Assembly: GCA_029010715.1 (NCBI GenBank)
Contig: JAQXKZ010000015.1
Span: forward strand, 1 to 64,000
Origin: Clostridiales bacterium
GTDB lineage: Bacteria; Bacillota; Clostridia; Oscillospirales; Oscillospiraceae
Direction of reading: 5' to 3'
DNA length: 64,000 bases
The notes under the pieces were generated by a model. The model was not told the DNA's origin. It saw nothing but the letters and a program-made list of their open reading frames with translations, and searched no databases. The translations under genes were made by a program, and so were the position numbers. Shown here piece after piece: positions 220-36,201 of this stretch; the stretch's first letter is position 1; the number at the start of each line of letters is the position of its first letter.

Positions 220-2928
220 ATGAAAACAGTCACAAAATTCTTATCCATGCTTCTTCTCGTCGCCATGTGCCTGAGCCTTTTCGGCGGCAGCGCATATGCG
301 CTTGAGCTCGGCGGGTCCGCTTCGACTCCCGGCTCCGATGTCAGCTCCGTTACGGCGAGCGGAAGCAGTGCAGGCGGATTCGAAGTCGGCGGCGCCGACG
401 CTTCCGGAACCCAGAGCGAATCCGGTACAGACACTCTTTCTGACGACCTTGAGATTGACGATTCTGTCTACAGCACCAGGAGAGGCCTTCTCAGAGCTCC
501 CGTAGCGCCTCCGGTGGCCGACGGTGAAGCCCAGATCGGCACCACCGTATATGAGACTCTGGCTGACGCTATCGCGAAGGCTCAGCAGAACGATACCATC
601 AAGCTTCTTAAGAATGTAACTACCAATTCTATCATCACCATCAGCGTTCCGGTCACGATCGACCTCAACGACTTCAAATGGACTCTGAACAAGAGTCTGA
701 ACATCAACGCTGCGGTAACCGTCACCGATACGGCCTCCACCGGTATCCTCGATATGTATGACTACATAAACGTTTATGCCGGCCTGAAGTTCAATAACAT
801 CGATCTTTACTGCAACAGCAACTCCGGCTTCAGCTTCGGCTACGGCGGCAAGGTCACCATGGACTATGTATGGGGCAACGGCAACCTCTTTGCCAACGCC
901 GGCAGCACCAGCCAGATGCTGGTCAACAGCGGCTGCTATGAGTACAGACCCAACGGTCTCAACGCTCCCGGTACTGTTATCTCTGAGCGCACTGACGGCA
1001 GATTTGAGGTCCGCGCAGGTGAGGATACTGACATCACCAAGTATCAGGCCTCCATCGGCAGCACCTACTATACCACCCTCAGCGAGGCATTCCAGAAGGC
1101 AGTCAGCGGCGATACCATCGTCATAGTCAAGCAGAGCGGCAAGACCAGCGTCAGCGGAGCCGAACTCACCGACTATAAGAACGTCACCCTCGACCTCAGC
1201 GGCGAAGATGTTTACGACGGCGGCATCACCGTGACCCCCAACAGCAGCCTGACCATCACCAACGGTAAATTCAATGCTGGCATAATAAACAACGGTACTC
1301 TGACCGTTTCCTCCTCTGCGGAGCTCGTTGCGCTCAGCAGCTACGGCACCACCTATGTCAACGGCAAGATTGCTACCATTAACATCAGCAGCGGCAACAT
1401 GAACGTATCCGACACCGCGGAGATCACCACGATCAATGTCGCCAACGCGCCTACCATTTACGTTCCTGAAGGCTCCAGCGCCAAGATGGGCAGCATCAAC
1501 AAGAACCCCGGCAGCGCACCCAGGCAGGTATACGGCGGTATTTGGTCCAACAGCAATGTTGACAGCTACGTTGCCGACAACTTCGAGGCAAAGCAGCAGA
1601 CCTCTACCACCTGGATCGTTCAGCGCAAGGGCGTAACTCCTACCCCCACTCCGAGCGGCAAGCCCGTGAACGCCAGCGTCAGCCCCAGCTCTCAGCAGTA
1701 CTACCAGAAGAACAATTCCAACGCAGTTAAGTTCACTGTATATCCCGCAAACAGCCTGACCTCTCTGGTTGCTTACACCGCATCCGGTTCCGTTACCCTG
1801 AATCAGGGAAGCGACTACGGCTACAACAGCAGCACCGGCGCTGTCACCATTTACAGCACCTACCTTGAGAAAATCAAGGCTCAGACCGTTACCCTGTACT
1901 TCTACTTCGCAGGCGAGACCAATCCCGCTACCGCGCTCGTATATGTCATTCCTTACTGCAGCCTGAACACCGGCAGCTACTACAGGAATACCGGCAACGC
2001 AGTCTACTTCGACATGTCCACCGGCTCTGCATACGGCTACAGATACGGCACCTCCACTGACTTTGCCTACTCTCAGCCCCTGTACAGCAGCAACTACACC
2101 GAGACCAACGGCAGCAACGGCTATGTTACCCTGCGTCTGAACAACAGCTTCCTGGATTCCCTGGCAAGCAACCAGACCTACTACTTCTTCTACGTGCTCG
2201 ATAACAGCAATACCCGCTACCGCATGGAGAGGAACGGCCTGACCATCGACAGCAAATCTCCTTCTGTCGGCGGTGACTACATGATCGACTACCTCGACAG
2301 CGCATACTGGTACTATGGCGACAGCAAGCTCGGCTTCAGAGTCAGCCCGCTCGCCAGCGGCGGTATCGCAGTTGACAACTGGGGAGTTCCCGGTGAAGAG
2401 TACGTCGACAGCGGCACCGGCAAGATCTACCTCGGCACCGCTCTGCTCAAGGAACTCAAGACCGGCTGGCACACCCTGACGGCCTACTACGGCGAGTACG
2501 GTGAGGAACCTTCCCGCTCCATCGACTTCTATGTCGGACCGTACCTCAAGCCCGTCGACACCGATAAGCACGTCATCAACAGCAGCAAGAACCTGAAGTT
2601 CGTCTGCTCCGACAGTATCGCAAAGGTCTATGTCGGCGATAAACTCCTTGACGACGAGTACTACACCATCAGCCGCGACGGCAAGTACCTGACCCTCAAG
2701 GCAGGCTTCCTGAATGCCCGCATGGCAGGCGAGACCTACAACCTCTCCGTCCTGACCGTAAACAACGAGTATGCAAGCACCACTTTCCGCATTCTCACTA
2801 CCGCTCAGGCTTCTTCCAGCCCAAGGACCGGCGATGAGAGCAATATGGGTCTGTGGCTCGCATTCCTGATCGTCTCCGGCGGCGCAGCGATCGCTGTTGT
2901 CCCGAGACTCAGAAAGGGCAAGGACTGA
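220..2928 (+). CDS. Large secreted surface protein with X2-like Ig domains and SPRTGD wall-anchor tail
   Basis: A 902-residue exported protein. Residues 1-28 form a signal peptide ending in AYA. A Ser/Gly-rich, probably disordered stretch follows to about 95. Two repeats, each opening with a line like 'YETLADAIAKAQQNDTI' (about 110 and 285), resemble beta-helix rungs. From about 480 there are four Ig-like modules of about 100 residues with the look of the X2 carbohydrate-associated family. The C-terminus has SPRTGD, a hydrophobic helix and the basic tail RLRKGK, which fits a clostridial variant of the LPXTG sorting signal. Surface display by a sortase is inferred; no sortase gene is in the window. 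The protein has almost no Cys and a very high Ser/Thr/Asn/Tyr content. It could be an adhesin or a glycan-binding scaffold; no catalytic motif was recognised. Confidence 0.75.
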   Translation: MKTVTKFLSMLLLVAMCLSLFGGSAYALELGGSASTPGSDVSSVTASGSSAGGFEVGGADASGTQSESGTDTLSDDLEIDDSVYSTRRGLLRAPVAPPVADGEAQIGTTVYETLADAIAKAQQNDTIKLLKNVTTNSIITISVPVTIDLNDFKWTLNKSLNINAAVTVTDTASTGILDMYDYINVYAGLKFNNIDLYCNSNSGFSFGYGGKVTMDYVWGNGNLFANAGSTSQMLVNSGCYEYRPNGLNAPGTVISERTDGRFEVRAGEDTDITKYQASIGSTYYTTLSEAFQKAVSGDTIVIVKQSGKTSVSGAELTDYKNVTLDLSGEDVYDGGITVTPNSSLTITNGKFNAGIINNGTLTVSSSAELVALSSYGTTYVNGKIATINISSGNMNVSDTAEITTINVANAPTIYVPEGSSAKMGSINKNPGSAPRQVYGGIWSNSNVDSYVADNFEAKQQTSTTWIVQRKGVTPTPTPSGKPVNASVSPSSQQYYQKNNSNAVKFTVYPANSLTSLVAYTASGSVTLNQGSDYGYNSSTGAVTIYSTYLEKIKAQTVTLYFYFAGETNPATALVYVIPYCSLNTGSYYRNTGNAVYFDMSTGSAYGYRYGTSTDFAYSQPLYSSNYTETNGSNGYVTLRLNNSFLDSLASNQTYYFFYVLDNSNTRYRMERNGLTIDSKSPSVGGDYMIDYLDSAYWYYGDSKLGFRVSPLASGGIAVDNWGVPGEEYVDSGTGKIYLGTALLKELKTGWHTLTAYYGEYGEEPSRSIDFYVGPYLKPVDTDKHVINSSKNLKFVCSDSIAKVYVGDKLLDDEYYTISRDGKYLTLKAGFLNARMAGETYNLSVLTVNNEYASTTFRILTTAQASSSPRTGDESNMGLWLAFLIVSGGAAIAVVPRLRKGKD

Positions 2929-2967
2929 ACGCAGGATAAGCGTCAGATAAGCAAACAATGATAATTC

Positions 2968-2991
2968 GCCCCACAGCCTTAGCTGTGGGGC
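2968..2991 (+). terminator. Terminator-like hairpin after the surface protein gene
   Basis: A perfect 10-bp inverted repeat (GCCCCACAGC / GCTGTGGGGC) with a 4-base loop lies 40 bp after the stop codon. The U-tract after it is weak (GTTATC), so termination efficiency is uncertain. Confidence 0.6.
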
Positions 2992-3042
2992 GTTATCGCT
3001 GTGCCGGGCTTTGTAAACTTTTTATGTATTACAGGTATGCTG

Positions 3043-3071
3043 TTGAAAAGCAGCCGGCGCTGAAGTATAAT
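3043..3071 (+). promoter_or_regulatory. Sigma-A promoter of the Sel1 lipoprotein gene
   Basis: TTGAAA (3043-3048), a 17-bp spacer and a perfect TATAAT (3066-3071) lie just ahead of the lipoprotein gene, whose ribosome binding site AAGGAG is at about 3103. This makes the gene its own transcription unit. Confidence 0.75.
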
Positions 3072-3117
3072 CTAGGGCACCCGGAAAAGTTGTGTTTTAA
3101 TATAAGGAGAGCTTGAA

Positions 3118-4317
3118 ATGAAAAGATCATTGTCAATAATACTGCTGCTGGCGATGCTGCTTTGCCTGGCCGCCTGCGGTGAGACTGCGCCGGCTGCTAC
3201 TGCTGCGCCCGAAGCCACTCAAACACCGGACGATTCTCCGGAAGCCATGGCCGCAGAGGCGGAAAGGCTTTTTTATGATGACGCGGATTACGCGGCGGCA
3301 TTTGAAAAGCTGAGCGTTGCGGAAATCAGCGGCTTTGCTGAAGTGCAGGAACTGCTCGGTACCTGCTATTACCTCGGACTCGGTACCGACGTTGATTATG
3401 ACGAGGCTGTGCCTCTCCTGACCAGAGCGGCGGATCAGGGCAGCGTGCCGGCAATGTATATGCTGGCTGCGGCCAATTATGCCGGCAACGGCGCCAGAAA
3501 GGATACTGATAAGGCCGGGGAACTCTACAGAAAGTTTGTGAGTGCGGCTGAGTCTGCCGGGATCGAAGAGACCGATCGGTACGGGCGCGTCCTGGCCTAT
3601 CTTGCCGACTGCTACGGCTTCGGCAGGGGAGTGACGAAGAACGCGGATAAGGCGAATGACTATGCCGAAAAGGCTGTTGCGGCCGGAAAACTCTGTGCAC
3701 TCGACCAGGTTAGACTCGCCGAAGGCTATGTTGCCGGCGTATTCGGCAAGGCTGAGCCCACGCCCGACCCGGAACCCACCGGCGATCCCTACGCGGTGCC
3801 CGATTCTGCCGTAAATACCGAAGAGCCGGCAGCTGAGGTCAAAACGGTCCCCGCTGAGGCCGAGGCGCTCTACAGCAGCGCGCTCAGCGGTATCAGAGCT
3901 CTTGCGGACTGCGGTAACGTGAAGGCCGTTAAGATACTCGGAGACTATTCTTTCTACGGCCTTGGCGGAGTAGGGCAGGACTATCTGAAGGCTCTTGAAT
4001 ACTACACGGAGGCCGGTGAGCAGGGCGATGCCGACGCTCAGGCCCAGGTAGGCTATATATACCAGAACGCCTGCGGCGTTGAGGCTGACTACGAAAAAGC
4101 CATGGAGTGGAACAACAGGGCCGCCCAGCAGGGCAACGCTCAGGGACAGGCTCAGATAGGCTGGCTGTATCATCATGGACTGGGCGTGACCCAGAACCTT
4201 GACGAGGCCGGCAGATGGTATACCAGAGCCGCCGATCAGGGCAACACCTGGGCGGAGGAGCGTCTGGCGGAGACCGAGATTACAAACCCGCAGAGCTCGT
4301 TTGAGGCACACGCATAA
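3118..4317 (+). CDS. Sel1-repeat (TPR-like) lipoprotein
   Basis: A 399-residue lipoprotein. The signal peptide ends in the lipobox LAAC with the lipidated Cys at residue 20, followed by an Ala/Thr/Pro-rich linker. Residues from about 60 carry Sel1-like repeats with the hallmark 'A...G...A...LG..Y..G.GV..D..KA' pattern; the clearest are near 85-160 and 265-385. An acidic Pro-rich spacer at about 215-245 divides the repeats into two groups. Such solenoids bind partner proteins; the partner here is unknown. It stands alone with its own promoter and is convergent with the glycosyltransferase gene at 4650. Confidence 0.85.
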   Translation: MKRSLSIILLLAMLLCLAACGETAPAATAAPEATQTPDDSPEAMAAEAERLFYDDADYAAAFEKLSVAEISGFAEVQELLGTCYYLGLGTDVDYDEAVPLLTRAADQGSVPAMYMLAAANYAGNGARKDTDKAGELYRKFVSAAESAGIEETDRYGRVLAYLADCYGFGRGVTKNADKANDYAEKAVAAGKLCALDQVRLAEGYVAGVFGKAEPTPDPEPTGDPYAVPDSAVNTEEPAAEVKTVPAEAEALYSSALSGIRALADCGNVKAVKILGDYSFYGLGGVGQDYLKALEYYTEAGEQGDADAQAQVGYIYQNACGVEADYEKAMEWNNRAAQQGNAQGQAQIGWLYHHGLGVTQNLDEAGRWYTRAADQGNTWAEERLAETEITNPQSSFEAHA

Positions 4318-4589
4318 CGTCAGAAGAAGCTCGCGCCGCTCCGCTTCCGCCGGGGCGGCGAAAGCTGCGCTATGCTCCCTCCTTCTTCCTTTTCCGGTCA
4401 GACCCGCCTTGACGGGTTCTGCCCGGAGGACGCGGGGGGGAAGAAGCTCGCGTCGCTCCGCTTCCGCCGGGGCGGCGAAAGCTGTGCTATGCTCCCTCCT
4501 TCTTCCTTTTCCGGCCAGACCCGCCATGACGGGCTCTGCCCGGAGGACACGGGGGGGAAAGCTCGCGCCACGGAGTTCCAGTATTATTA
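4318..4589. repeat. 117-bp tandem repeat, two full copies plus a partial third
   Basis: Copy 1 is 4324-4440 and copy 2 is 4441-4557, with only about eight differences between them; a third copy breaks off after a few bases at about 4558. Each copy carries GC-rich inverted repeats (for example CCGCCGGGGCGGCG and CAGACCCGCC...CGGGTTCTG). The unit length is a multiple of three, so one frame stays open through it, but the readings are Ser/Arg/Ala-rich, have no ribosome binding site and do not look like protein. It is best treated as a non-coding intergenic repeat. Confidence 0.8.
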
Positions 4590-28946: not shown

Positions 28947-29189
28947 ATGAAGCATAAATACTGCTGCAAAATGACGGAGTACCGTTCGGGAAAGCGTTGT
29001 CGGGTGCATATGGGCGGGCAGACGTTTGACTGCCCCGGCCAGCTGGTATACTATGCTGCCGCAGAGGAGCTGCTCGGCACAGTCACCTGCGACGGCGGCA
29101 ATTCTTTTGTGCGGATAAGCTGCTGCTCCCGCTTCGGCGCCGGACTGCCGGAAGCGGCATCTCGACTGTCGTCTCCTCTTGTGGTATAA
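28947..29189 (+). CDS. Possible small Cys-rich protein
   Basis: An 80-codon frame between the strong promoter and the GTPase promoter. The translation has seven Cys and reads like a folded domain in part (MGGQTFDCPGQLVYYAAAEE), but no ribosome binding site precedes either candidate ATG (28947 or 28974), and the stop codon lies inside the next TATAAT. It may be a real small gene or the transcript may be a non-coding RNA. Confidence 0.35.
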   Translation: MKHKYCCKMTEYRSGKRCRVHMGGQTFDCPGQLVYYAAAEELLGTVTCDGGNSFVRISCCSRFGAGLPEAASRLSSPLVV

Positions 29190-29190
29190 T
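29162..29190 (+). promoter_or_regulatory. Promoter of the GTPase-NYN/ylmH operon
   Basis: TCGACT (29162-29167), 17-bp spacer, perfect TATAAT (29185-29190). The leader is only about 30 bases and ends in a very strong ribosome binding site GGGGGGAGG, with no attenuation leader of the tet(M) type. Confidence 0.65.
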
Positions 29191-29225: not shown

Positions 29226-31844
29226 ATGGGTGAACGTGAGTCGGAAAAGACGGTAAAGCATATTTGCGTGGGTCTGTTGGCCCATGTGGACGCGGGAAAG
29301 ACCACCCTGTCCGAGGCCATGCTGTACCTTTCCGGAAAACTGAAGAAGCTGGGCCGGGTGGACCACAGGGACAGCTTTCTTGACAATAACAGCCTCGAGC
29401 GTGCGAGGGGCATCACGATTTTTTCCAAGCAGGCTGTCATGCGGCTTGGCGATATGAGCGTGACACTGCTCGACACGCCGGGGCATGTCGACTTTTCAGC
29501 CGAGGCCGAACGAACGCTGCAGGTGCTCGACTACGCCGTGCTCGTCATCAGCGGTACCGACGGCGTTCAGGCGCACACAGAGACGCTCTGGAAGCTGCTG
29601 GAGCGTTACAATGTGCCCACCTTTATATTTATAACCAAAATGGACCTGCCCGGCTGCGGCCGGCAGGCGATCATGGACGGACTTCGGGCGCGCCTGTCGG
29701 AGCATTGCGTTGACTTCTCCGCCGGAGACGGAGAGCTGTTCGACGCCGTCGCCATGTGCTCCGAGAGCGCGATGGACGAGTATATCGGGACCGGCACGGT
29801 CAGTACCGGGCAAATCAGCTATATGATACGCCGGCGCGGGCTTTTTCCGTGCTGCTTCGGCTCCGGTTTGAGGACCGATGGCGTTTCCGGGCTTCTCGAC
29901 CTTATCGCTGCCTGTGCGCAGCCGGAGGACTACGGCCCAGACTTTGCCGCAAGGGTATATAAGATTGCACGCGACGCGCAGGGCAACCGCATGACATTCA
30001 TGAAAGTAACCGGCGGCGAACTCAGAGTCCGCAGCCTGATGAAATACAGCGCCCGGGACGGCAGCGCGCTGGAGGAGAAGATAAACCAGCTGCGCATATA
30101 CTCGGGCGCAAAATATGAGACGGCGGAGAGCGTCCTCCCGGGACAGATATGTGCGGCGCTTGGCCTTTCCGGGACATTTCCGGGTCAGGGTCTCGGCGGC
30201 GCGTCTGACCTTCCGGCTCCGCTGCTGGAGCCCGTGATGAGCTACCGCGTTATCCTCCCGCCGCAGACAGACCCGGCCGTGATGCTGCCTAAGCTGATGC
30301 AGCTCGACCAGGAGGACCCGCAGCTGCATATCGTATGGGACGAACATACGCGCGGGATCAGCGTCCAGCTCATGGGCAGGGTGCAGGCGGAGATCTTTCG
30401 CAGCATCGTCAGGGAGCGCTTTGACACCGATATCACGCTCGATGCCGGGCGCATAATGTACCGTGAAACCATCGCGGACACGGTCGAGGGCGTCGGACAC
30501 TTTGAGCCGCTGCGCCACTATGCCGAGGTGCACCTGCTGCTCGAACCGCTGCCGCGCGGCAGCGGTATCGAGCTCACCAGCACCTGCCCCGAGGACGAGC
30601 TCGACCGCAACTGGCAGCGCCTGATACTTACGCACCTTGCGGAGAAGCAGCATATCGGCGTGCTGACCGGATCGCCGCTTACGGATGTACGGATCAGTCT
30701 GGCCGCAGGACGCGCGCATATAAAGCACACAGAGGGCGGCGATTTCCGTCAGGCCACCTACCGCGCGGTGCGCCAGGGCCTGATGCATGCTGAGAGCATT
30801 CTGCTGGAACCGTGGTACGACTTCGTGCTTGAAGTGCCGGACGGGCAAATCGGCAGGGCGATAAGCGACGTGCGCGCGATGAACGGCAGCTTTGATTCCC
30901 CGGAGGAGAACGGCGGCATGATGCGCCTCGAGGGCGCGGCCCCGGTCGCCGGGATGAACGAATACATGCAGGAGCTTCTGGCATATACCCACGGCCGCGG
31001 CCGCCTGAGCCTGACGCCCGGAGGCTACCGCCCGTGCCGGGAGCAGCAGAAGATCGTCGGCGCCATCGGCTACGAAGCCGGACGCGATACTGACAATCCT
31101 GCCGATTCCGTGTTCTGCTCGCACGGAGCGGGCGTGAACATTCCCTGGGACAAGGTGCCTGAGTACATGCATCTTGAAAGCTGCCTGAAGCCGCCGGCGG
31201 ATGCAGCGCCCGCCACGGCCGCCGCGCCGAAATACAGAAGCCTCAGCATAGATGACCGGGAGCTCGAAGCTATAATGGAGCGCGAATTTGGCGCGATAAA
31301 ACGCCCGCAGTACTCCGGCCGTCAGGTCAACGCCGCGGTAAGCGAGCCGGAGGCCGTGAAAAGACCCGAGTTTCTTATTGTAGACGGCTACAACCTGATC
31401 TTTGCCTGGGATGAACTGAGGGCGCTGGCGGCCGACCGGCTCGACCTCGCGCGCGGGCGGCTTATGGATATGCTCTCAAACTACTGCGGATTTACGAAAG
31501 CAAAGCTCGTGCTGGTGTTCGACGGCTTCCGCACGCCGGGGAACCCGGGCTCCAGGGAGGAGTATCACAATATAAACGTCGTCTTCACGAAGGACGGAGA
31601 GACAGGCGACGCGTATATCGAGCGTATTGCCGGCGAGATCGGGAAGAACTATTCCGTGCGCGTCGTCACGAGCGACAATCTGATAAGGCTTTCGGCGCTG
31701 CGCTCGGGTGTGCTGCGCTGCTCCTCGGGCGAGTTCAGAAACGAGGCGGAATGGGTCCTCGGCCAGATCGACGAGGTGCTCAAAAAGACCAACATGGGAG
31801 CGCACAAAACAAGAATCGCGGATAAGATAGATGGAAAACGATGA
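29226..31844 (+). CDS. TetM-like translational GTPase fused to a C-terminal YacP-type NYN nuclease domain
   Basis: 872 residues. The first 640 or so match ribosomal-protection/EF-G-like GTPases: G1 AHVDAGKT (19-26), G2 RGIT (61-64), G3 DTPGH (83-87), G4 TKMD (137-140, Thr in place of the usual Asn), then domains II-V. A linker of about 60 residues rich in Ala/Pro follows. Residues 716-872 are a YacP-like NYN domain with the acidic residues Asp720 (VDGYN), Asp766 (VFDGF) and Asp817 (TSDN) that would form a metal-dependent RNase site. The first part would bring the nuclease to the ribosomal A site. It overlaps ylmH by 14 bases. Tetracycline resistance is possible but not implied. Confidence 0.85.
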   Translation: MGERESEKTVKHICVGLLAHVDAGKTTLSEAMLYLSGKLKKLGRVDHRDSFLDNNSLERARGITIFSKQAVMRLGDMSVTLLDTPGHVDFSAEAERTLQVLDYAVLVISGTDGVQAHTETLWKLLERYNVPTFIFITKMDLPGCGRQAIMDGLRARLSEHCVDFSAGDGELFDAVAMCSESAMDEYIGTGTVSTGQISYMIRRRGLFPCCFGSGLRTDGVSGLLDLIAACAQPEDYGPDFAARVYKIARDAQGNRMTFMKVTGGELRVRSLMKYSARDGSALEEKINQLRIYSGAKYETAESVLPGQICAALGLSGTFPGQGLGGASDLPAPLLEPVMSYRVILPPQTDPAVMLPKLMQLDQEDPQLHIVWDEHTRGISVQLMGRVQAEIFRSIVRERFDTDITLDAGRIMYRETIADTVEGVGHFEPLRHYAEVHLLLEPLPRGSGIELTSTCPEDELDRNWQRLILTHLAEKQHIGVLTGSPLTDVRISLAAGRAHIKHTEGGDFRQATYRAVRQGLMHAESILLEPWYDFVLEVPDGQIGRAISDVRAMNGSFDSPEENGGMMRLEGAAPVAGMNEYMQELLAYTHGRGRLSLTPGGYRPCREQQKIVGAIGYEAGRDTDNPADSVFCSHGAGVNIPWDKVPEYMHLESCLKPPADAAPATAAAPKYRSLSIDDRELEAIMEREFGAIKRPQYSGRQVNAAVSEPEAVKRPEFLIVDGYNLIFAWDELRALAADRLDLARGRLMDMLSNYCGFTKAKLVLVFDGFRTPGNPGSREEYHNINVVFTKDGETGDAYIERIAGEIGKNYSVRVVTSDNLIRLSALRSGVLRCSSGEFRNEAEWVLGQIDEVLKKTNMGAHKTRIADKIDGKR

Positions 31845-32574
31845 ACTGCTTAAGCGCGGCGGGGATCTCGCGCGGCGCTGTGAAAACAAAAACTGCCTGA
31901 CCGCGACGGGCTTTCTGACGCCGGCGGAGCAGTACGCGCTGTCCCATGACGCGAACCTGCGCTTCAGCCGCATGGTGTTCCGCGGCGGGCACGATGATTT
32001 CGAGCGCGGCATAGCTTTTTTCATTCCGGACTATATGGAGGAGGCGGAGCTGGACGAGACGGAGCATATCCGCGCCATAAAGCTGACTGCGGCCTTTGGA
32101 GAGCCCGGCCACCGGGACTATATGGGCGCGGTGCTCGGCATGGGCGTCAGCCGCGAATGGGTCGGCGATATTATCATCGACGGGAACACGGCGTATGTGC
32201 TGTGCCAGCCGAGCGTGCTGCGGCACCTGCTGAGCATCGGCAAGGTCGGCCGCTATGGAGTGCGCGCGGAGGAGATCGCGCTGGCGGATATCCCGCGTAA
32301 GGAGCGTCAAAAGGAGGAGCGGAGCTTCACATTGATGAGTCTGCGGCTCGACGCGCTGTGCTCCGGCATGTTCCGTATATCACGCACCGAGGCCGTGCGG
32401 CAGATAGCCGCCGGAAACGTGAGCCTGAACTATGCCGAGTGTCTGAAATCGGACCGGAGCGTCAGGGAGGGGGATATAATATCCCTCAAAGGCGCGGGCA
32501 AGGGCAGGCTTAAAGAGCTCGGCGGCAATTCCCGCAAGGGCCGGATATTTGTAACTGCAGAGATTTTCAAATAG
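31831..32574 (+). CDS. ylmH: S4-domain RNA-binding protein YlmH
   Basis: 247 residues. The N-terminal two thirds are the YlmH-type domain (FLTPAEQYAL at about 29, RGGHDDFERGIAFF at about 51). The S4 RNA-binding domain lies at about 171-240 (LRLDALCSGMFRISRTEA). YlmH binds the 50S subunit/peptidyl-tRNA complex and has been reported to act in ribosome-associated quality control in Bacillus. The usual location is beside the sepF/divIVA cell-division genes; here it is fused transcriptionally to the GTPase-nuclease gene by a 14-base overlap, which argues for a shared job on stalled ribosomes. Confidence 0.85.
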   Translation: MENDELLKRGGDLARRCENKNCLTATGFLTPAEQYALSHDANLRFSRMVFRGGHDDFERGIAFFIPDYMEEAELDETEHIRAIKLTAAFGEPGHRDYMGAVLGMGVSREWVGDIIIDGNTAYVLCQPSVLRHLLSIGKVGRYGVRAEEIALADIPRKERQKEERSFTLMSLRLDALCSGMFRISRTEAVRQIAAGNVSLNYAECLKSDRSVREGDIISLKGAGKGRLKELGGNSRKGRIFVTAEIFK

Positions 32575-32599: not shown

Positions 32600-33811
32600 A
32601 TGAGAGCATATGAGAGACTTTTGAAATACGCGGCGGTAGACACGCAGAGCAGCGAGGACGCGCAGGGTACGCCCAGCACGCCGGGCCAGCTGACGCTCTG
32701 CCGCATTCTTGCCGAAGAGATGAGGAGCATAGGCCTTGAGGAGGTCTATGAGGACGGACGCGGCTATGTCTACGGCAAACTCCCCGCGAGCGCCGGCATG
32801 GAGAAGGCGCCGGCCATAGGCTTCATAGCCCATGTGGATACCGCCCCTGATTTTTCCGGCGCCGGCGTGAAGCCCGTGCTGCACGTAAACTACGACGGCG
32901 GCGACCTGCCGCTCGGAGACAGCGGCCTTGTGCTTTCGCCGGAGAAATTCCCCGATCTGAAGGACAGCGTCGGCCAGACGCTTATAACCACGGACGGTAC
33001 GACTCTGCTCGGCGCGGACGATAAGGCCGGAGTCGCCGAGATCATGACCGCCTGTGAGCGGATAATCAGCGAAAAGCTGCCGCACTGCGCTCTCTCCGTA
33101 GCTTTCACTCCCGACGAGGAGATAGGCAGCGGAGCGCAGCTGCTGGATCTGGCGCGCTTCGGCGCCGACTTTGCCTATACCGTCGACGGCGACGAGATAG
33201 GCGAGATAAATTACGAGACCTTCAACGCGGCGGGCGCGGGCTGGGAGATAACCGGTGTCAGCGTCCACCCCGGCAGCGCCAGGGGCATCATGGTTAACGC
33301 CGCTCTCGTCGCGGCCGAAATAAACTCAATGCTCCCCGCCGGCGAGATCCCGGCTGAAACCGACGGCTACGAGGGCTTCTATCACCTTACTGAGCTCAAC
33401 GCGACAGTTGAAAGGGCGGAGATGAAGTACATCGTCCGCGACCACGACGCGAAAAAGTTTGCCGCGCGGCTTGATAAGCTTCGCGCCGTCGAAAAGCACA
33501 TAAACGAAAAGTACGGAGAGGGTACGGCGAAGCTCACTCTCACCGAGCAGTACCTCAACATGGAAGAGATACTCTCAAAGCGCATGGACATCGTCGAACG
33601 CGCGAAGCGTGCCGTTGAGAAGCTCGGCATAGCCCCTGTCATCCGCCCGATACGCGGCGGCACAGACGGCGCGCAGCTCTCTTTTCTGGGCCTGCCATGC
33701 CCTAACCTCGGCACCGGCGGCAGCGCCTTTCACGGCCCGTTTGAGCATATTACGGCTGAGCATATGGATCAGGGCGTCGAGGTGCTCCTGAACATAGTCA
33801 GCGCGGGCTGA
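32600..33811 (+). CDS. pepT: Peptidase T (tripeptidase)
   Basis: 403 residues of the M20 zinc peptidase family. The metal-binding and catalytic motifs are in order: HVDTAPD (about 77-83), GADDKAG near 140 and the general-base pair TPDEEIG near 173. The family removes the N-terminal residue of tripeptides in the cytoplasm. GGAGG lies ahead of the start, 25 bases after ylmH; the MFS gene follows after 4 bases. Confidence 0.92.
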   Translation: MRAYERLLKYAAVDTQSSEDAQGTPSTPGQLTLCRILAEEMRSIGLEEVYEDGRGYVYGKLPASAGMEKAPAIGFIAHVDTAPDFSGAGVKPVLHVNYDGGDLPLGDSGLVLSPEKFPDLKDSVGQTLITTDGTTLLGADDKAGVAEIMTACERIISEKLPHCALSVAFTPDEEIGSGAQLLDLARFGADFAYTVDGDEIGEINYETFNAAGAGWEITGVSVHPGSARGIMVNAALVAAEINSMLPAGEIPAETDGYEGFYHLTELNATVERAEMKYIVRDHDAKKFAARLDKLRAVEKHINEKYGEGTAKLTLTEQYLNMEEILSKRMDIVERAKRAVEKLGIAPVIRPIRGGTDGAQLSFLGLPCPNLGTGGSAFHGPFEHITAEHMDQGVEVLLNIVSAG

Positions 33812-33815
33812 AACT

Positions 33816-35129
33816 ATGGAGAAAGCGACTGGACTGGGCGCCGGAAAATGGCTGACCCTGATAATCATAGGCCTGTTCGGGCAGTTTGCCTGGACGATAG
33901 AGAACATGTATTTCAACGTGTTCCTGTATAACACCATCTCGACCGACCCCGGCTATATCGCGGCCATGGTGGGCTGGTCGGCGGCCGCCGCTACGCTGAC
34001 TACGCTTCTGATGGGCGCGCTGTCGGATAAGCTCGGCAGGCGTAAGATATTCATTGCAGGCGGCTATGTCCTTTGGGGCCTGTCAACGGCGGCCTTCGGC
34101 TATATCACGCCGGAGAACGCGGCTCTGCTGTTCCCCGGGGCGAATGCCGCGGCGGCTGCGGCGATGATGGTTGTTGTCATGGACTGCGTCATGACCTTCT
34201 TCGGCAGCACCGCCAACGACGCGGCCTTCAACGCCTACGTCACCGACGTGACAGACAGCTCCAACCGCGGCCGGGCGGAGAGCGTGCTGGCCATACTGCC
34301 GCTTATATCAATGCTTATCATCTTTGGGGCCTTTGACGGTCTTACGCAGCAGGGGAGATGGAAGGAGTTCTTCGACATCTTCGGCCTTGCGGTCTCCTGC
34401 GTCGGCGTGCTGGCCTTTTTCCTCGTGAAGGACGGGCCTGAGCTGAAGCGCGCTGACGACGGCTATTTCAAAAACCTTGTTTACGGGCTGAGACCTGATG
34501 TTGCGGCGAAGAACCCCGAACTCTACATATCCTTTGCGGCTTTCTGCCTGTTCTCGGTCGCGGTGCAGGTTTTCTTCCCGTATCTGATAATCTATATACA
34601 AAACTACCTCGGTATCACGGACTATGCTCTGGTCCTCGGCGTCGTGCTGATACTCTCGTCTGCCGTGAGCGTCGTATCGGGCCGTTTCATTGACCGTCTC
34701 GGCAAGCTGCGCTTCGTTTACCCGGCGGCTGCGGTTATGCTGGCGGGGCTGACCGGCATGTATTTTGTGCGCTCCTCCGCCGGCGTCATGGTCGCCGGTA
34801 CCGTTATGATGAGCGGATACATGATGATGGCCGCGGCGCTCGGCGCGAATATCCGCGACTGGACGCCTCCGGATAAGGCCGGTCATTTTCAGGGCATACG
34901 CATGATCTTCGCAGTGCTGCTGCCGATGATAATCGGCCCGTCCGTAGGCGCGGCGGTTATAAGAAACAGCGACAGCACATATATGGAACTCGGGCAGATA
35001 AAGACCCTGCCTACGCCGGAGATATATCTGGCCGCGGCGGCGGTGCTTCTGCTGACATTCATACCGGTCGTCTACCTGCGCCGGAGGGAAAGAGGAAAGA
35101 ACAGTGCAGACAGAGAAGAAAACGCCTGA
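33816..35129 (+). CDS. MFS transporter
   Basis: 437 residues with 12 predicted membrane helices; the major-facilitator loop after helix 2 is present as GALSDKLGRRK (about 67-77). The opening helix line (ENMYFNVFLYNTI) and the long first half suggest the sugar-transporting GPH/SLC45-like branch, but the substrate cannot be read. It overlaps the NahK-like kinase by 26 bases, which points to import of a sugar that the kinase phosphorylates. Confidence 0.8.
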   Translation: MEKATGLGAGKWLTLIIIGLFGQFAWTIENMYFNVFLYNTISTDPGYIAAMVGWSAAAATLTTLLMGALSDKLGRRKIFIAGGYVLWGLSTAAFGYITPENAALLFPGANAAAAAAMMVVVMDCVMTFFGSTANDAAFNAYVTDVTDSSNRGRAESVLAILPLISMLIIFGAFDGLTQQGRWKEFFDIFGLAVSCVGVLAFFLVKDGPELKRADDGYFKNLVYGLRPDVAAKNPELYISFAAFCLFSVAVQVFFPYLIIYIQNYLGITDYALVLGVVLILSSAVSVVSGRFIDRLGKLRFVYPAAAVMLAGLTGMYFVRSSAGVMVAGTVMMSGYMMMAAALGANIRDWTPPDKAGHFQGIRMIFAVLLPMIIGPSVGAAVIRNSDSTYMELGQIKTLPTPEIYLAAAAVLLLTFIPVVYLRRRERGKNSADREENA

Positions 35130-36201
35130 TAAAAGAGCGATACCCTGCAGGTTCCCGATAGACGGAGAGGTCGTCAGCTTCGAGCAGATAAAGGAAGGAC
35201 ACATAAACGAGACTTATCTTGTCACGACCGACAAAGGGACGAAATACATACTCCAGTGGATCAACCGCTATGTTTTCCCGAATGTGGACGCGATCATGAA
35301 CAATATGTCCTCCATCAGCGCCTTCCTGAAGGACAGCGGCGAGAGAATGGCCATGATAAGCTATATCGACACTCTCGACGGCAGGAGCTATTACGACGAC
35401 GGCTGCGGCGGCGCGTGGAGGATATACCGCTTTGTTGACAACAGCGTCTGTCTGCCCCGCGCGGAGACGCCTGAGCAGTTCTGCGAGAGCGCCCGCGGCT
35501 TCGGCGCGTTCCAGTATGCCCTGCGCGATTTTCCGGCGGAGTGCCTGGAGGAGACTATAGAGAATTTCCATAACACGGCAGACCGTTATGATAAGTTCCG
35601 CGCCGCCGTTGCGGAGGATGCCTGCGGCAGACTTGAGGAGGTGCGCCGTGAGGCACGGTTCATCCTCGAGCGCGAGGAGCGCGCCTGCCGGCTCTGCCGT
35701 CAGCTGGACCGCGGAGAGCTCCCGGTGCGCGCCACGCATAACGATACCAAGATAAACAATGTTCTCTTTGACGCCGATACCGGCAAGGCCATATGCGTCA
35801 TAGACCTCGACACGGTCATGCCCGGGCTTTCGGCCTATGACTTCGGCGACGCGATACGCTTCGGCGCCTCGACGGCCGCCGAGGATGAGCCGGAGCTCGA
35901 CAGGGTGCGTCTTGATCTGGAAATGTTCCGCGCGTTCACGCGCGGATATCTGGAGGCCTGCCCGAGCCTGACAGCGGGGGAGGTCGCGGCACTGGCACAG
36001 GGCGCATACACGATGACGATCGAGTGCGGGATGCGCTTTCTCACCGACTATCTTATGGGCGACAGGTATTTCTCCGTTGACCGTGAAAAGCACAATCTCG
36101 ACCGCTGCCGAACACAGCTTAAACTGATAAGCGACATGGAGGAGCATTGGGACGAGCTGGAGCGCATAGTGGCACAGGAAGCTGCCAGGCTTTCTGTATA
36201 G
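35104..36201 (+). CDS. NahK-like N-acetylhexosamine 1-kinase (aminoglycoside-phosphotransferase fold)
   Basis: 365 residues. The GTG at 35104 follows AGAGGAAAG and lies inside the MFS gene. The phosphotransferase fold shows the ATP-lobe start EGHINETYLV (about 23), the catalytic HNDTKINNVLF block (about 217) and the metal site VIDLDTVMPG (about 235), which is near-identical to the NahK signature. NahK phosphorylates GlcNAc or GalNAc at C1 in the lacto-N-biose pathway; other pathway genes are missing here, so the sugar is uncertain. Confidence 0.7.
   Translation: MQTEKKTPDKRAIPCRFPIDGEVVSFEQIKEGHINETYLVTTDKGTKYILQWINRYVFPNVDAIMNNMSSISAFLKDSGERMAMISYIDTLDGRSYYDDGCGGAWRIYRFVDNSVCLPRAETPEQFCESARGFGAFQYALRDFPAECLEETIENFHNTADRYDKFRAAVAEDACGRLEEVRREARFILEREERACRLCRQLDRGELPVRATHNDTKINNVLFDADTGKAICVIDLDTVMPGLSAYDFGDAIRFGASTAAEDEPELDRVRLDLEMFRAFTRGYLEACPSLTAGEVAALAQGAYTMTIECGMRFLTDYLMGDRYFSVDREKHNLDRCRTQLKLISDMEEHWDELERIVAQEAARLSV

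Follow-up and report, generated by a model that had tools for sequence, protein, structure and literature searches.

What might a cell do with a translational GTPase that carries a ribonuclease at its C terminus? The question is raised by a gene in the window, the 64,000-nucleotide stretch analysed here (positions 1 to 64,000 of contig JAQXKZ010000015.1, assembly GCA_029010715.1) from a Clostridiales bacterium assigned to the Oscillospiraceae. An earlier interpretation of this DNA (hereafter the sequence-only reading) had described a complete GTPase and a YacP-type NYN domain in one chain, and both the open reading frame and Pfam bear this out. The frame starts with ATG and runs uninterrupted through 872 codons (Table 1). 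Matches to GTP_EFTU (residues 11-232, E 5.5e-45), EFG_IV (residues 408-522) and EFG_C (residues 526-607), with EF-G_D2 (240-318) and EFG_III (335-405) each slightly below its Pfam cut-off, are followed by NYN_YacP (PF05991; residues 717-869, E 2e-38, 132.5 bits versus a cut-off of 24.6). From the nature of these parts, the conservation of their residues, the single clade in which the fused nucleases fall (joined by one standalone row) and the near absence of genomes that hold fused and standalone forms together, we give an even chance to the protein being a Rae1-type endonuclease that cuts messenger RNA (mRNA) in the ribosomal A site and brings its own ribosome-binding translational GTPase.

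Searched by sequence against solved structures (E ≤ 0.01), the NYN part matched two distinct chains, 5mq8 and 5mq9, both of B. subtilis YacP (Rae1). In the match to 5mq8 (E 4e-19), the motifs DGYN, VFD, ETxD and TSD are aligned, and D720, D766, D795 and D817 correspond to D7, D53, D81 and D104, as counted on the alignment. These four metal-site acids, together with G721, N723 and S816, are identical in 109/109 full-length fusions, a set that includes the window protein and near-duplicates (L045 and L122, for example, are identical), and the acids are also identical in a smaller alignment (73/73 fusions). D7 and D81 are reportedly the residues mutated in work on Rae1. The sequence-only reading had rightly named D720, D766 and D817 as nuclease acids, all of them conserved in the homologue alignment, and had missed the equally invariant D795. 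Because sections of PMC12320835 and PMC6613710 describe Rae1 as a nuclease attacking mRNA in the ribosomal A site, cutting of A-site mRNA is the natural guess for the fusion; we infer from this relative that the fusion would likewise depend on the ribosome and cut there.

In the GTPase part, D22, G24, K25, T26, G86, K138 and D140 are identical in 109/109 fusions and H87 in 108/109. With its catalytic and nucleotide-binding residues intact, the fusion GTPase should hydrolyse GTP. Its best NCBIfam match is NF012153 (tet_protect), covered end to end but at 367.2 bits versus a cut-off of 775; three fused or unfused relatives (L135, L181 and L113) and L142 scored 414-451 with this model, a distant Tet-like protein (L184) 587 and a TetM/W-type protein (L144) 852.6. 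The EF-G model TIGR00484 gave 255.7 bits, below its cut-off of 659.4. A tip loop of the HIKHTEGGDFR type is kept in nearly all members, fused and unfused, and H498 at the domain IV tip, present in 105/109 fusions, corresponds to a histidine in S. aureus EF-G. On the available tests, namely the NF012153 cut-off and the TetO loop, the fusion does not qualify as a tetracycline protection protein. The label 'TetM-like' given to the GTPase by the sequence-only reading overstated the kinship, with the TetO-type domain IV loop absent and the score far below the tetracycline-protection cut-off. The fusion GTPase is classed as a distinct subfamily, together with unfused sisters.

The linker between the two parts is 54-100 residues long (median 65, 109 fusions), and E679 in its ELEAIMEREFG segment is invariant in 59 rows (alignment A1). 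Because of this length, the linker should let the tethered nuclease reach the A site, and we infer that it does so.

Looked for across Clostridia, the same fusion of GTPase and NYN domain was present in 20/20 fetched loci with a fusion-length frame (L113-L132) from 15 family codes, two of these loci coming from the window's own family code. A sample of the phylum (E ≤ 1e-85, four candidates scored per genome) gave a close match to the GTPase in 22/299 genomes, 16/22 of them outside the window's class. The matching frames comprised 18 of at least 857 aa and 4 of 651-661 aa, and all 18 long ones, the window and G029 included, carry GTPase and nuclease. The recurrence in 20/20 loci and 15 family codes, and in more genomes of the phylum, excludes a chance joining. 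By name, the closest relatives are Oscillospiraceae, Ruminococcaceae or Clostridia of ruminant and other guts, on which ground the window's class is taken to be Clostridia. In three assemblies (L023, L035 and L071), the fusion gene is split into two frames, by sequencing error or decay.

Within the window's class, 192/293 genomes have a PF05991 match and 101/293 have none. With frame length as a proxy for form (fusion, at least 560 aa; standalone, at most 220 aa), a fusion-length frame is found in 99 of the 192 positive genomes, the window's genome included, and a standalone-length frame in 87; both forms lie above the cut-off in 1/192 (G284). The remaining positive genomes are six with intermediate frames, those of G172 and G156 containing GTPase sequence and being cut by the contig end, and one with a fragment. 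Three more fusion genomes hold a second PF05991 match, in a frame of 163-165 aa, that falls under the cut-off.

In a tree of the NYN domain, all 35 fused rows and one standalone row (L100) form one clade (support 100/99), and the other 23 standalone rows fall outside it. This tree fits, without proving, a single capture of a Rae1 gene by the GTPase, and the fused nuclease looks like the Rae1 of these lineages. The one-form-only pattern and the position of the fused clade beside the standalone rows are consistent with the fused NYN domain being the counterpart of single-copy Rae1. The standalone nuclease of the fused clade (L100:1486-2004, minus strand) and an unfused GTPase (L138:1507-3453, plus strand) lie on different contigs of one genome, G209; the pair either arose by splitting of a fusion or survives from the state that preceded it.

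Fourteen unfused sisters, 640-724 aa in length, share the signatures around GHFEPLRHYAEV, KHTxGGDFR and SVFCxxGxG...MH, with few exceptions. They group beside the fused rows, with support of 100/100 for 11 rows and, over 14 rows in a quick tree, an SH-aLRT (Shimodaira–Hasegawa-like approximate likelihood ratio test) value of 94, the root of the GTPase tree on distant Tet rows being unsure. Among 40 chosen genomes, 11 encode such a sister: 4/20 of those without PF05991 and 7/20 of those with standalone PF05991. One genome with a 48% identical unfused sister, G178, also holds a second Tet-like GTPase frame (G178:C4:41644-43509; 755 aa, with 36% identity to the window protein). An unfused member on a megaplasmid of L. 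salivarius falls among the fused rows in the quick tree, which suggests that either the nuclease was lost there or only the GTPase part was transferred. On the megaplasmid pHN3 (L185:4536-6926), an unfused GTPase of this group is annotated TetM/TetW/TetO/TetS and is divergent from an adjoining gene for ribosomal protein S14; 33 Ligilactobacillus plasmid records match the window protein. As for tetracycline phenotypes of L. salivarius, sections of PMC12502609 report intermediate sensitivity for a strain in which tet(M) and tet(L) are called as well, and nothing in the sections of PMC12502609, PMC12427466 and PMC8065712 isolates the effect of the unfused relative.

The genome that hosts the fusion (G000, 95% complete) has no other PF05991 match. 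It has one NFACT_N (RqcH-type) gene, one ylmH and 13 GTP_EFTU matches, not all of them separate genes, including one 703-aa frame of EF-G length. Two full-length matches to transfer-messenger RNA (tmRNA) were found, at C7:73231-73580 (L145, 156.9 bits) and C25:77567-77916 (L146, 150.7 bits). One of them ends in CCA, its counterpart in CCC, with ARAGORN calling just the first; the finding could reflect a second tmRNA gene or assembly contamination. As tmRNA, an RqcH-type gene and ylmH are all encoded, ribosomes on cut mRNA could be rescued in this host. According to sections of PMC11317155, the YlmH of B. subtilis takes part in quality control at 50S subunits.

The host's ylmH is the gene that follows the fusion, and the 14-base overlap noted by the sequence-only reading agrees with the frame coordinates. 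Its product scores 36.6 bits with YlmH_RBD (PF17774; cut-off 23) and 18.8 bits with S4, below that family's cut-off of 22.8. In a set of 80 loci, assembled by a search favouring close relatives and containing one distant GTPase that is not a fusion (L080), a ylmH gene follows on the same strand, no more than ~1.9 kilobases (kb) away, in 32/80. All 32 encode proteins at least 58% identical to the window protein, and 23 of the 32 have an overlap of 11-32 bases between fusion and ylmH. The remaining 47 fusion loci in this set, 39 of them with at least 2 kb of downstream sequence, showed no ylmH. Nor was it found at L113-L132 (0/20, spanning the 15 family codes, leaving uncounted one 18-bit match to a 137-aa frame in L121) or at further fused loci with short flanks (0/16, G000 and G029 left out). 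We therefore rejected ylmH as a general partner of the fusion; the link is confined to close relatives. Translational coupling of the fusion to ylmH is plausible in that clade and is not a general rule. Beside unfused sisters, ylmH was seen at 1/11 loci: in L135 (G028, of another family code and without PF05991), a Pfam-confirmed ylmH (3647-4417, plus strand) is divergent from the unfused GTPase (1381-3342, minus strand), which gives the two genes a second kind of neighbourhood; a search of G028's order comprised G028 alone. Taken as a whole, the sequence-only reading is partly supported. It holds for a GTPase joined to a nuclease of Rae1 type whose metal site is intact; the kinship to TetM is weaker than stated, the tie to ylmH is not general, and its ideas that tRNA is cut and that the 50S complex passes to YlmH are conjecture.

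Gene clustering around 94/99 fusion loci revealed no neighbour widely shared among L113-L132, the best of the 30 largest clusters reaching 4/20. The clustering is crude: the open reading frame picker loses genes under long antisense frames, five loci were lost, and ylmH was recovered at 15 loci versus 32 by profile. In the window, an M20 peptidase gene starts 25 bases after ylmH. It opens a tightly spaced or overlapping same-strand series (32600-36201) that continues with an MFS transporter gene and an APH-type phosphotransferase-family gene. Given this spacing and a promoter-like site 35 bases upstream of the fusion, an operon is likely. Pattern matching found eight promoter-like sites in the scanned region, versus a mean of 2.8 (standard deviation 1.7) in shuffles.

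Table 1 Features of the fusion locus, in window positions
Feature	Positions	Strand	Evidence or remark
Candidate sigma-70-type promoter TCGACT-17-TATAAT, extended TG	29162..29190	+	Pattern match; end 35 bases before fusion start codon
Fusion, 872 aa: translational GTPase and YacP/Rae1-type NYN nuclease	29226..31844	+	Open reading frame; Pfam, NCBIfam; PDB homologues EF-G, TetO, TetM, YacP
GTPase part, residues 11-607, G domain and domains II to V	29256..31046	+	Pfam; residue conservation
Domain IV signature GHFEPLRHYAEV, codons 424-435	30495..30530	+	Mostly common to unfused sisters; absent from TetM/W-type comparator
Domain IV tip loop HIKHTEGGDFR, codons 498-508	30717..30749	+	Replaces YSPVSTPADFR loop of TetO
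C-terminal GTPase motif SVFCSHGAG...W..V..YMH, codons 628-649	31107..31172	+	Unfused sisters end soon after
Linker, codons 655-716, with conserved ELEAIMEREFG segment	31188..31373	+	Alignments of fusions
NYN_YacP/Rae1 nuclease domain, residues 717-869, acids D720, D766, D795, D817	31374..31832	+	Pfam; alignment with 5mq8/5mq9; invariant acids
ylmH, 247 aa	31831..32574	+	Start 14 bases inside fusion gene, overlap includes stop; sole match to own protein in genome at E 0.001

A Rae1-type fusion might work as follows. In its GTP form, the GTPase would bind a ribosome whose A site is vacant or blocked and place domain IV there. Domain IV may then swing out, or the GTPase may leave, upon which the nuclease on its tether of 54-100 residues could enter the A site and cut the mRNA. 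At a guess, the truncated complex would pass to tmRNA or to RqcH-type quality control, and in the small clade with the overlap, coupled synthesis of YlmH may, speculatively, match the supply of a binder of 50S subunits and peptidyl-tRNA to the flow of rescue. Gating by GTP, the passage to tmRNA or RqcH and a tie of any kind to YlmH are guesses. As one scheme, in which GTP hydrolysis on the stalled ribosome gates the cut by the tethered Rae1 domain and so yields a substrate for tmRNA or quality control, while a rumen and gut clade co-translates YlmH to catch the 50S–peptidyl-tRNA complex, the proposal is tentative and, in our estimate, rather doubtful.

Several points weigh against the Rae1-type reading itself. 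The one-or-other pattern would follow from mere inheritance of a single-copy gene as well as from functional replacement, the trees allow a single fusion event without proving it, and 101/293 class genomes have no PF05991 match. Unfused sister GTPases occur in genomes without a PF05991 match (G178, G288, G025 and G028), and the GTPase therefore seems to have a job independent of the nuclease. In B. subtilis, Rae1 functions as a protein of its own. It is hard to see how domain IV and the nuclease would fit into the A site together, for which reason the order of events given above is a guess. The ylmH link is restricted, and the overlap marks one clade, as the linked loci are all at least 58% identical to the window protein and L113-L132 gave 0/20.

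The two parts could instead be loosely coupled, the GTPase relieving stalls on the EF-G/Tet side and the NYN domain acting as an ordinary Rae1 on a few regulatory mRNAs, with the fusion keeping both near the ribosome. The long linker would suit such an arrangement, as would the existence of unfused sisters both with and without standalone Rae1 and the presence in G209 of a fused-clade standalone nuclease and an unfused GTPase on separate contigs. However, fusions that keep one linker position conserved (E679, invariant in 59 rows) recur across many family codes, a hint that being joined is itself important, and we consider loose coupling possible but on the unlikely side. An idea of 2015, found in sections of PMC4342817, is that such proteins protect the ribosome against tetracycline or another ribosome drug, the RNase being part of the resistance. 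It accords with the end-to-end best match to tet_protect and with the annotation of some relatives as TetM/TetW/TetO/TetS. It is nevertheless improbable: the 367 bits compare with a cut-off of 775 and with 853 for a TetM/W-type row under the same model, HIKHTEGGDFR stands where TetO has the loop YSPVSTPADFR, and coverage of at least 80% of the fusion was seen in 2/72,556 plasmid records, both replicons larger than 250 kb.

EF-G-type GTPases can have assembly roles, and the fusion might accordingly be a factor of ribosome assembly or RNA maturation, with the GTPase docked on subunits and precursors of ribosomal or transfer RNA trimmed by the NYN domain. Such maturation has been proposed for NYN domains, as cited in sections of PMC4342817. 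We think this very improbable for the fusion, whose nearest characterised relative, Rae1, is described, in the sections cited above, as an A-site mRNA nuclease. Under the Rae1-type reading, this natural fusion makes two questions directly testable, namely how Rae1 gets to the A site and how mRNA is cut on stalled ribosomes in these bacteria. Some genes annotated TetM/TetW/TetO/TetS may also encode translation factors and not resistance proteins, a distinction that would bear on resistome counts.

The window protein belongs to an architecture in print since 2015, and the joining itself is not new: sections of PMC4342817 (Atkinson 2015) describe a Tet-type GTPase with a YacP-like NYN domain in ten Clostridiales and suggest RNase-linked drug resistance. 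What is added here is the reading of the nuclease as Rae1, its distribution, the failed Tet tests and the restricted scope of the tie to ylmH. The literature searched, outside which the main Rae1 papers (Leroy 2017, Condon 2018) lie, yielded no experiment on a fusion of this sort, and the fusion does not appear in sections of PMC8161019, PMC12320835, PMC11780869 and PMC6613710.

Among known systems, the fusions of Atkinson 2015 share the Tet/EF-G-type GTPase, the YacP-like NYN domain and the Clostridiales hosts; sections of that paper (PMC4342817) give ten species and a resistance idea, whereas here the Tet tests failed, a counterpart of Rae1 is proposed and 99/293 class genomes have a fusion-length frame. 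TetM and TetO have the same five-domain EF-G-like GTPase, aligned with TetO over residues 11-604, but the fusion differs in its domain IV loops and C-terminal motif and scores less than half the family cut-off. EF-G resembles it in domain order and in the aligned domain IV tip histidine (S. aureus EF-G); the fusion lacks the EF-G stretch SGGRGQ, and its host has a separate frame of EF-G length. PF17774 and a weak S4 match mark the neighbouring gene as YlmH-like, yet ylmH of B. subtilis sits in the ylm operon, according to sections of PMC11317155, whereas here it overlaps the fusion gene. Rae1/YacP of B. subtilis (5mq8, 5mq9) has a homologous NYN domain with all metal-site acids aligned, and while it is a separate small protein there, it is here the C-terminal domain of a GTPase.

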